Virus record (IMG/VR): IMGVR_UViG_3300047673_000232
Coordinates: 1-39,784 of that record
DNA length: 39,784 nt
Direction: 5' to 3' (one strand)
Source of the DNA: a virus
The notes below the pieces were generated by a model that searched no databases, was not told where the DNA came from, and saw only the letters and a list, made by a program, of their open reading frames with translations. The position numbers and the translations under genes were made by a program. Position 1 is the first letter of the stretch. Each line of letters begins with the position of its first letter. This document shows positions 1 through 31,848 of this stretch, one piece after another.

Positions 1-172
1 CGGCCTTATTCACGGGTTGTCCACAGATCCAACAAAGATCATTTTCCCGGATCACCCGGCGTTGCATACGCCGCCACGGTCGGCCCTGACGCTGTTGGCG
101 CGGTGCCCGTCGTTGGGGCCGCTGTACGCCTGCCTGCGGGACGAACGCCGTCCCCGGCGTCCCCTGAGCCAT
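1..172 (-). CDS. HNH endonuclease, N-terminal fragment cut by window edge
   Basis: ATG at 172 is preceded by a good ribosome site (GAGGGTGG). The 57 visible residues are basic and Gln/Arg-rich, then read RRVIRENDLCWICGQPVNKA, the zinc-knuckle start of phage HNH nucleases (CWICGQPV). The catalytic His-Asn-His part would lie beyond base 1. Reading on across the window ends as if circular does not give an HNH continuation, so sequence is missing. In actinophages such an enzyme typically sits next to the terminase and assists packaging. It follows the preceding gene by about 30 bp in the same direction. Confidence 0.75.
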   Translation of the reverse strand, partial: MAQGTPGTAFVPQAGVQRPQRRAPRQQRQGRPWRRMQRRVIRENDLCWICGQPVNKA

Positions 173-14713: not shown

Positions 14714-16105
14714 TCAACGAGGTTTTGCGCGGGCGATGATCTCCAAATGTTCGAGCCTCGGTTTCATCCGGCCCTTACCGCGCGAACGTACGGCGACCCG
14801 TTCCAACACCCAGCGGACGACGGCGCGTCGTCGCTCGACGTCGAGCGAGTGCCACCATGTAGCGATCTCACCCGCGTCAGTGACCGCCAGTCCGTATAGC
14901 GGCGTTCCGTTCGCAAGACGGTCGTAGCGTTCCTCGGCGAAAGCGAGCCGCGGGCGAAGAGTCGCGGTCGCAGCCAGCATCTGCTCGCGCGTGACAAGCC
15001 CGCTGGCGCGATCCTCCGCCCACTCATCAAGGTCCTGCTGTAGCCGAGTCACCTCGGCGCGTGCGTCCCCAATCCCATCCCCATCCGGGGCCCAAAGGGT
15101 CGCGGCCCTGGGGTCCGAGAGTCGTGCGATCACCGCCGCTGTAACCACGTCATCGGCGAATAGCATGGGGAGGCTGGCGCACCCACCATCCCGACACACC
15201 AGCACTGAGTACCCGTCACCATTCGTAGACTTCCGTCGATTCACTCCCATCGGACCATCACACTCGGCGCACGTTGCGATACCGCCGAGCAAATGCAGCG
15301 GAGCGCGGCCACCCCGGCCCTGGCCCTGGGTACGCCGGGCCGGATTCGCGAGCAACCGCAACACGGCACGAAACGTTTCCTCGGGCACAAGTACAGCCCA
15401 GTCGCCGGGCCCCACTTCCTCACCGCGATAGGTCGCGATTCCCGCGTTGCGCGGGGATGCCAACACCCACCGCAAACCGGTCGGATCCCACTCGCCGTCA
15501 AGCGTGGTCCTGATGCCCTGGTCATTCCAACTGCGGACAACTGACCGCAGCGACGATCCTGCTAGAACGTCATTAAACGCATCCCGCACAAGCTGCGCCT
15601 CTATAGGATGCAATGTGCCGTCCATATTGTAACCGAACGGTCGCCGACTCCAGGTTGGCTTGCCACGCGAAGCCTTTTGCTGATTTGCCGCGACCTGACG
15701 TAATGCCTTCTGCTCGCCTTCGTACTGCGCCCACGCGGTGACCGTCCGGGCAACGGCCCGGCCCGCTGGCGTTGACAGGTCGAGGTGCCCGACGTGCGCG
15801 GCATGCACGTTGACCCCTGTTTTAATTACACGCTCAAGGTCATCACTGCCCCGAATTAGTCGGTCAGTGTGCCAAATGATGACCGGCAACGGGTTGCGCT
15901 GCAGATCGGTCAGCAACTGCTCGAACGCAGGCCGTCGCTTACCTGTCGTTGCGCTCAGGTCGTTGTCAATGTAGGGATCGCCGATCCACTCCATACCGAG
16001 TCGCTCACGTAGCGCATCGGCGTCAGGTTGCTGCCGATCGACGCCGAGGTGCTCCCCGGTGCGATCCTGGGAGATGCGGTAGTAGGCGTATGCCAAGGTG
16101 CTCAT
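14714..16105 (-). CDS. int: Large serine integrase (463 aa)
   Basis: Catalyses site-specific integration at attP x attB. ATG at 16105. The resolvase-type catalytic domain has Ser12 in AYAYYRISQDRTG as nucleophile, GKRRPAFEQLL and WHTDRLIRGSDDLERV. A recombinase domain covers about 165-260. A zinc ribbon follows (CAECDG ... CRDGGC), then a coiled coil (about 345-385) that controls synapsis, then a basic tail (SRGKGRMKPR). It is complete and slightly short for the family. A palindromic candidate attP lies 2 bp upstream, and a divergent excisionase-like gene starts at 16473. A leaderless -10 (TACACT) ends 6 nt before the ATG. Confidence 0.93.
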   Translation of the reverse strand: MSTLAYAYYRISQDRTGEHLGVDRQQPDADALRERLGMEWIGDPYIDNDLSATTGKRRPAFEQLLTDLQRNPLPVIIWHTDRLIRGSDDLERVIKTGVNVHAAHVGHLDLSTPAGRAVARTVTAWAQYEGEQKALRQVAANQQKASRGKPTWSRRPFGYNMDGTLHPIEAQLVRDAFNDVLAGSSLRSVVRSWNDQGIRTTLDGEWDPTGLRWVLASPRNAGIATYRGEEVGPGDWAVLVPEETFRAVLRLLANPARRTQGQGRGGRAPLHLLGGIATCAECDGPMGVNRRKSTNGDGYSVLVCRDGGCASLPMLFADDVVTAAVIARLSDPRAATLWAPDGDGIGDARAEVTRLQQDLDEWAEDRASGLVTREQMLAATATLRPRLAFAEERYDRLANGTPLYGLAVTDAGEIATWWHSLDVERRRAVVRWVLERVAVRSRGKGRMKPRLEHLEIIARAKPR

Positions 16106-16106
16106 T

Positions 16107-16160
16107 TATTGAGTGTACACGGCGAGTCGCTGCACCCCGACTCTGACTTAGGACTCAATA
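16107..16160. other. attP: Candidate attP: 54-bp nested palindrome
   Basis: Outer arms TATTGAGT (16107-16114) / ACTCAATA (16153-16160) and inner arms GAGTCG (16124-16129) / CGACTC (16138-16143) share exactly the same centre, between 16133 and 16134. Each is separated from the other by 9 bp. Central dinucleotide is CA (non-palindromic, as serine integrases need). Size, symmetry and position beside int fit known serine-integrase attP sites of about 50 bp. Confidence 0.65.
16112..16141 (-). promoter_or_regulatory. Candidate leaderless int promoter
   Basis: On the minus strand TACACT (16117-16112) is a good -10 box, and the start would fall on the A of the int ATG, giving a leaderless mRNA. The -35 position (about 16135-16141) is weak and lies on the far side of the proposed crossover. 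The palindrome GTGTACAC overlaps the -10. Confidence 0.45.
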
Positions 16161-16472
16161 TCTGAGCACGGGCCACAGCGATATCCTGCGTGCGCAGCTC
16201 GCTGAGGGTGCCGCAACTCGACGTCCGGCCGGGGTGTCAGTGGCCCGCCGTAGGGTCCTGGGGCAGGACGCGCAGCACCTCTGCCGGACCGGCGCGGTAT
16301 GCCGCACTGTCACTCAATTCAAGGGTTGTGACAACGGTGTGACGCGACTGTTACTTGCGACCCGAAACCGAGTCACGTCATGCGCCGACGTCCATACGTG
16401 TCTGCCCTCTTGCGCGTACGCTCGCCAGCACCGGGTGACCACACCGCCCGAGGCACAAAATAGGGGAGCACT
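16161..16472. other. Intergenic region upstream of excisionase-like gene
   Basis: No gene seen in about 310 bp. It contains GTTGTGACAAC at 16325-16335 and a nearby GTGAC repeat (GTGTGACG), possible operator half-sites. It should hold the rightward promoter for 16473, but no clear -35/-10 pair is visible. Confidence 0.4.
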
Positions 16473-16766
16473 GTGACAAACGCGCATCGCAGGACAGCAG
16501 GACATGAGGTGTCACCGGAGGCTGTTCCGGACGTTGAACTTGAATACGCAACGCTTCGGGAGGCCGCCGAGATTCTTGGCGTGAATTACGCAACGGTGCG
16601 CCGTTGGATCGCTGCGGGACGTCTGGAGTCCTACCGACTCGGACCGAAGATGGTGCGTGTCAGACGTGAGGACTTGACACAGTTGCTGAGTCCCATCCCG
16701 ACGGCTGTCCGGAACGGGTCCGCGACGAGTAAAGCACGATCGGAGCAAAAGACACGCAAAGACTAG
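16473..16766 (+). CDS. Excisionase-like helix-turn-helix protein (97 aa)
   Basis: GTG at 16473 is preceded by AGGGGAGC. Residues about 24-72 (YATLREAAEILGVNYATVRR then WIAAGRLESYRLGPKMVRVR and REDLTQLL) form an HTH_17/excise domain. Basic tails flank it. Being divergent from int across the proposed attP, it could be the recombination directionality factor, or a regulator of the lysis/lysogeny choice. Family alone does not tell which. Confidence 0.78.
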   Translation: MTNAHRRTAGHEVSPEAVPDVELEYATLREAAEILGVNYATVRRWIAAGRLESYRLGPKMVRVRREDLTQLLSPIPTAVRNGSATSKARSEQKTRKD

Positions 16767-31075: not shown

Positions 31076-31848
31076 TCACCTCCCGAGCTCTCGGTTACGT
31101 CGTGCGCGCATGTCCGCCAGATAGGCGACGCCGCGTGGGGTCACAACCCGTTGCGGCGCGGTAGTTCCCGGCCTCGGGATCGGCGGCGGTTTCGGCCGGT
31201 TCCGATCCGCGCCGTTCTGCCACAACAGCAGCGCGAGCCGGTCGGCGACGACGGCCAGCAACAACTCGGCGTTCGACCACGGACCGTATCCGACGCGCTT
31301 GGGTGCGCGGGCGAGCTGGCTCGGACTGAGTGAGTCCCGGATCGCCGTTTTCGTAGCGCTCTCAGCCGGAAGCGCGGCGATCAACACGGCGAGTCGCCGC
31401 CATGTCAGATCGCCGCGCCACAGGTCCCGAAGGTCGATGCCCCGGTATCCAAGATCGGCCTCGATCGCCTCGCCGCACTGATCGATCAGTGCGGCGAGGC
31501 GAACGATTCCGGGGTCGATTGACCGGTCTTCTGCTGCCAGTCCGCAAACAGTGCCTCGATATCGTCCAGTGTCGGGTCAATCTGCTGCCACAACGTCCAG
31601 CTATCGGGGGTCAGTGACTTACTTGCCCACGTGTCGTAGTCGCCCGACCGCAGTGCCCTGATCGCGCTGGATCGCCACTTGCGCAATGGAATCACCGTCA
31701 CCATGTACTCGCCGAGCGACACCTCGACGGGATGGCTTTGGTCGACCTGCGCCTCGGCACGCAACCGGTCGGCCGGTTGCCGGATCGTGAGTCGCGGTTG
31801 CGGGTTGTCGATGATCGGCTGGTCATAGCGTTCCTGCTGTGTGGTCAC
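31076..31848 (-). CDS. Tail assembly chaperone, frameshift-extended form (about 257 aa)
   Basis: A -1 slip near the end of the shorter chaperone joins it to the frame that ends at 31076. The -1 frame is open through the overlap and reads LAALIDQCGEAIEADLGYRG then IDLRDLWRGDLTWRRLAVLI, the conserved second-chaperone domain. No start codon is needed for it. A candidate slip is CCCCGGA at 31514-31508 (CCG GAA read as CCC GGA), non-canonical. The long form contacts the tape measure during tail assembly. Confidence 0.78.
31486..31848 (-). CDS. Tail assembly chaperone, short form (120 aa)
   Basis: GTG 31848 overlaps the tail-tube stop (GTGA). VSLGEYMVTVIPLRKWRSSA then IRALRSGDYDTWASKSL and acidic DPTLDDIEALFADWQQKTG. 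Gene order between tail tube and tape measure, and the downstream -1 frame, identify it as the lambda G-like chaperone. Confidence 0.85.
   Translation of the reverse strand: MTTQQERYDQPIIDNPQPRLTIRQPADRLRAEAQVDQSHPVEVSLGEYMVTVIPLRKWRSSAIRALRSGDYDTWASKSLTPDSWTLWQQIDPTLDDIEALFADWQQKTGQSTPESFASPH

Follow-up and report, generated by a model that had tools for sequence, protein, structure and literature searches.

A nested palindrome directly upstream of a large serine integrase gene is the probable attP of an actinobacterial-type phage

Introduction

The attachment site of Listeria phage A118 provides a structural picture of how a serine integrase reads its phage site. A118 attP is pseudo-palindromic with a 50-bp minimal site. 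The recombinase domain reads each half-site near the centre and the zinc ribbon reads positions 16-24, while the strands are exchanged at the central 2 bp (PMC3783163, PMC3556126). In Streptomyces phage R4 (record D38173), the annotated attP core at 254-265 lies inside a 50-bp repeat at 231-280, which ends 11 bp before the annotated integrase start at 292. In the record of Streptomyces phage phiCAM, which encodes the closest relative that we found of the integrase described here, attP is unannotated.

Here we compare these systems with a locus in an IMG/VR virus record of 39,784 bases and approximately 66% GC, the whole of which we refer to as the window. A first-pass annotation had proposed that a nested palindrome beside the integrase gene (int) is the attP of this phage. 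The site has what is expected of a serine-integrase attP, namely a pseudo-palindrome of about 50 bp near int and a non-palindromic dinucleotide at its centre.

Results

Genome context and the integrase gene

Pfam and PHROG matches identify terminase, portal, head and tail genes in the window, and its phage is of actinobacterial type. Among the tail genes lies a strong hairpin at 31456-31509 (GCCTCGCCGCACTGATCGATCAGTGCGGCGAGGC; centre 31483, 24 of 27 positions paired), which is the best palindrome in the window by pairing.

Judged by its sequence, the int product is a large serine integrase of the R4/phiCAM group (Table 1), with 48% identity to phiCAM gp49 and 45% to R4 ORF469. Ser12 sits in a conserved YRIS motif, and a profile built from six integrase relatives matches the solved serine integrases PDB 9iu2 and 4kis, the latter being that of A118. 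The 463-aa protein combines the resolvase and Recombinase domains with a zinc ribbon, as large serine integrases do; the zinc ribbon is assigned by the fit of Cys279, 282, 304 and 309, with the cysteines as sole criterion and no Pfam zinc-ribbon match. Divergently upstream lies the gene for a small helix-turn-helix protein, a candidate regulator or directionality factor.

Table 1. Features of the int-attP region, in window coordinates
Feature	Coordinates	Strand	Basis
Large serine recombinase (integrase), 463 aa	14714..16105	-	Pfam Resolvase 2.1e-19, Recombinase 1.2e-13; PHROG integrase 2.9e-81
Outermost arm GTGCTCA, overlaps int start codon	16098..16104	+	Sequence, simulations
Probable attP core palindrome, 54 bp, centre 16133/16134, central CA on + (TG on int strand)	16107..16160	-	Direct read; P = 0.002 block statistic; centre = middle of att core in relative G577
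Outer arm TATTGAGT, positions 20-27 from centre, candidate zinc-ribbon contact	16107..16114	+	Domain inferred from A118 structure
Predicted -10 box TACACT of leaderless int transcript, 6 bp before ATG, in int-proximal attP half-site	16112..16117	-	Sequence; recurrence in representatives
Inner arm GAGTCG, positions 5-10 from centre, candidate recombinase-domain contact	16124..16129	+	Inferred
Central 8 bp CTGCACCC	between inner arms 16124-16129 and 16138-16143		Sequence
Inner arm CGACTC, pairs with 16124-16129	16138..16143	+	Sequence
Outer arm ACTCAATA, pairs with 16107-16114	16153..16160	+	Sequence
Outermost arm TGAGCAC, pairs with 16098-16104	16163..16169	+	Sequence
Divergent 97-aa HTH_17/excisionase-like (excisionase/MerR-like) protein	16473..16766	+	Pfam HTH_17 3e-11; PHROG excisionase/transcriptional regulator 7.8e-11

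Structure of the palindrome

Read directly, the 54 bp run TATTGAGT GTACACGGC GAGTCG CTGCACCC CGACTC TGACTTAGG ACTCAATA. The two arm pairs with one shared centre and 9-bp gaps on both sides that the first-pass annotation had described are exact to the base: the spacing is TATTGAGT-9-GAGTCG-8-CGACTC-9-ACTCAATA, and both perfect pairs are centred between 16133 (C) and 16134 (A). The central CA is non-palindromic, as had also been claimed, its reverse complement being TG. Overall, 16 of the 27 positions are paired. A third arm pair of 7 bp shares this centre and extends the palindrome to 72 bp (16098-16169, 23 of 36 positions paired), which takes in the int start codon. No clear equivalent of this outermost block was found in the relatives compared.

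To judge this structure, we simulated the surrounding 522 bp 2000 times with a Markov model. By itself, the pairing count of the 54-bp form is unremarkable (P = 0.16), as it would be if the repeats had arisen by chance between two genes. The block structure, however, goes beyond chance (P = 0.002). None of the 2000 simulations attained the 72-bp form, and no other centre in the 39.8-kb window does so. Only 1 bp separates the edge of the 54-bp palindrome from the int start codon, a position that gives independent support beyond the block statistics. Considering that the palindrome stands at the place expected beside int and that the arrangement is repeated in relatives, the likelihood of a chance origin is extremely remote.

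Free-phage relatives

A palindrome upstream of int is also found in R4, phiCAM, phiScoe3, Salutena, Pablito and several metagenome phages. It is present at the int start in most but not all of the free-phage relatives examined, and some of these palindromes are weak; at three loci (L008, L009 and L010) it is weak or absent. At a Serinicoccus locus (L011, near 10001), the int start overlaps the end of the upstream ORF, so attP is probably elsewhere there.

R4 resembles the window in that a palindrome of about 50 bp, its attP, immediately precedes int and a TACACT box stands before the start codon, but its arm and core sequences are different and it has no start-codon arms of the window's kind. 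In phiCAM the start reads TAGCAT-N6-ATG and the palindrome centre lies 27 bp before the int start codon, compared to 28 bp in the window, whereas the arm sequences differ.

Prophage junctions in related lysogens

Integration junctions could be read in G577, an actinobacterial genome of the same order as Serinicoccus. This genome (L158-L161, G577:C1:1-63774) has tandem prophages whose two int copies are separated by 52.6 kb and whose overlapping parts are 99.7% identical. Because the prophages are in tandem, attP, attL and attR are all readable. An intact 54-bp palindrome (20 of 27 positions paired) lies upstream of one int and host sequence upstream of the other; a second contig carries the left phage half again, fused to host sequence. 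The three sites have only AGGTCCAT in common, and the centre of the attP palindrome (AGGT/CCAT) is the middle of this core. The attB rebuilt by joining the two host flanks spans 500 bp and is contiguous, without insertion, in 22 of 23 other genomes of the family; the AGGTCCAT core was found in all five family genomes examined. This shows that in G577 the palindrome is attP, with the crossover at or within 4 bp of the palindrome centre. The G577 attB falls inside a host open frame of 320 aa.

G577 resembles the window in having a 54-bp attP palindrome directly upstream of int and a similar start (TACGAT-N6-GTG), with the crossover at the centre. Conversely, its integrases are only 38-42% identical to that of the window, and its core is AGGTCCAT. 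In a second genome, the R4-like lysogen G075, the R4-like int comes directly after host-like sequence whose last bases, GAAGCAGTGG, are those with which the R4 core GAAGCAGTGGTA begins; no attR was detected in the 66 kb examined.

The first-pass annotation had suggested looking for a prophage whose attL and attR split at 16133/16134. A split at the palindrome centre is what the relative G577 provides. For the window's phage itself, the collections searched contained neither a lysogen nor an attL or attR, and no integrase in them was more than 48% identical. Three partly overlapping draws of actinobacterial genomes (394, 396 and 294) held no integrase closer than 45%, and a single-protein scan of genome contigs returned only two relatives (40-42%). 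A half-site pattern scan of viral contigs gave 94 stretches, with no related integrase in the loci checked (L046-L129, including 80 listed). The portal protein had its best genome matches at 40-46%, which did not resolve the host, and no attB could be predicted for the window's phage. Since neither a lysogen nor a closer integrase was found, we infer by homology that CA at 16133-16134 is the exact crossover. The site is presumably active in recombination.

The int start and the predicted promoter

The int start reads TACACT-CAATAA-ATG without a Shine-Dalgarno sequence, as expected of a leaderless promoter with TAnnnT 6-7 bp before ATG or GTG. Among 24 representative integrases, the window's included, 11 have TAnnnT-N6/7-RTG with an in-frame ATG or GTG, compared to none at spacings of 2-5, 8 or 9. 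In members with a known centre, the -10 box sits 15-16 or 21 bp from the palindrome centre. There is no obvious -35 consensus. We predict that the window's int start is leaderless and that its promoter has the -10 box in the int-proximal attP half-site. The recurrence of the motif suggests that int of this family may often be leaderless, and that in free-phage members the promoter would share its DNA with attP. The literature covered on integrases, attP and leaderless or int promoters, which is partial and so a weak guide to prior knowledge, contained no paper matching by title and abstract.

The overlap with the predicted -10 box and start codon, the extension to 72 bp and the DNA-binding protein gene divergently upstream would all fit a palindrome that is mainly an operator, for autoregulation of int or for the divergent HTH protein, with attP elsewhere. 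However, in R4 and G577 the corresponding palindrome serves as attP, and near the int 3' end there is no palindrome as strong as that at 16107-16160. We consider a mainly operator function highly improbable, although an operator role and an attP role do not exclude each other.

The 72-bp palindrome could also act as RNA. In transcripts from upstream it would fold (-31.4 kcal/mol, z = -4.7) and bury the int start codon, which lies inside the outermost arms, thereby guarding against read-through expression. As modelled, the outermost arms would form this strong hairpin only if transcription enters from upstream. In the free phage the upstream gene points away from int, so that read-through is not to be expected, and the predicted leaderless transcript would be without the other arm. 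The relatives, moreover, are accounted for only by the attP explanation, which makes an RNA function very unlikely. A terminator was ruled out, as the site lies at the int start and the same place serves as attP in relatives.

Discussion

We conclude, with a probability of about 0.93, that 16107-16160 is the attP of the neighbouring large serine integrase. Several observations support the first-pass proposal: the adjacent int belongs to the R4/phiCAM group, R4 has its annotated attP core at the corresponding position, most free-phage relatives examined carry a palindrome there, the G577 junctions split at the centre, and the G577 attB is uninterrupted in related genomes. Since recombination in a related prophage with readable junctions takes place at the centre of the corresponding palindrome, the site is a well-supported addition to a known class and nothing unprecedented.

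By analogy with characterised serine integrases, an integrase dimer would bind the two inverted half-sites of attP and pair with a dimer on the host attB. Both sites would be cut at the central CA, followed by rotation and religation. The products would be attL and attR with one palindrome half each, and int would lie against one of the junctions.

The further suggestion that the inner arms are read by the recombinase domain and the outer arms by the zinc ribbon is plausible by comparison with A118, whose integrase is only distantly related. The arms fit the A118 layout in outline, with the outer arms 3-4 bp further out than its zinc-ribbon motif. The outer arms of R4 (18-25) and G577 (19-26) differ in position from those of the window (20-27), but are likewise shifted outward.

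The window thus offers a sequence-defined integrase-attP pair from a phage for which the searches returned no close relative (48% integrase identity at most), and a possible orthogonal integration tool once attB is known. With the predicted -10 box inside an attP half-site, the expected position of a -35 element falls at or beyond the crossover, and integration would change the DNA there. It is possible, though on balance we think it unlikely, that attP doubles as the int promoter. Integration would then replace the upstream promoter region with host sequence and remove one arm of the 72-bp palindrome, so that int expression would depend on the integration state, and attP-bound integrase could shut off its own promoter.
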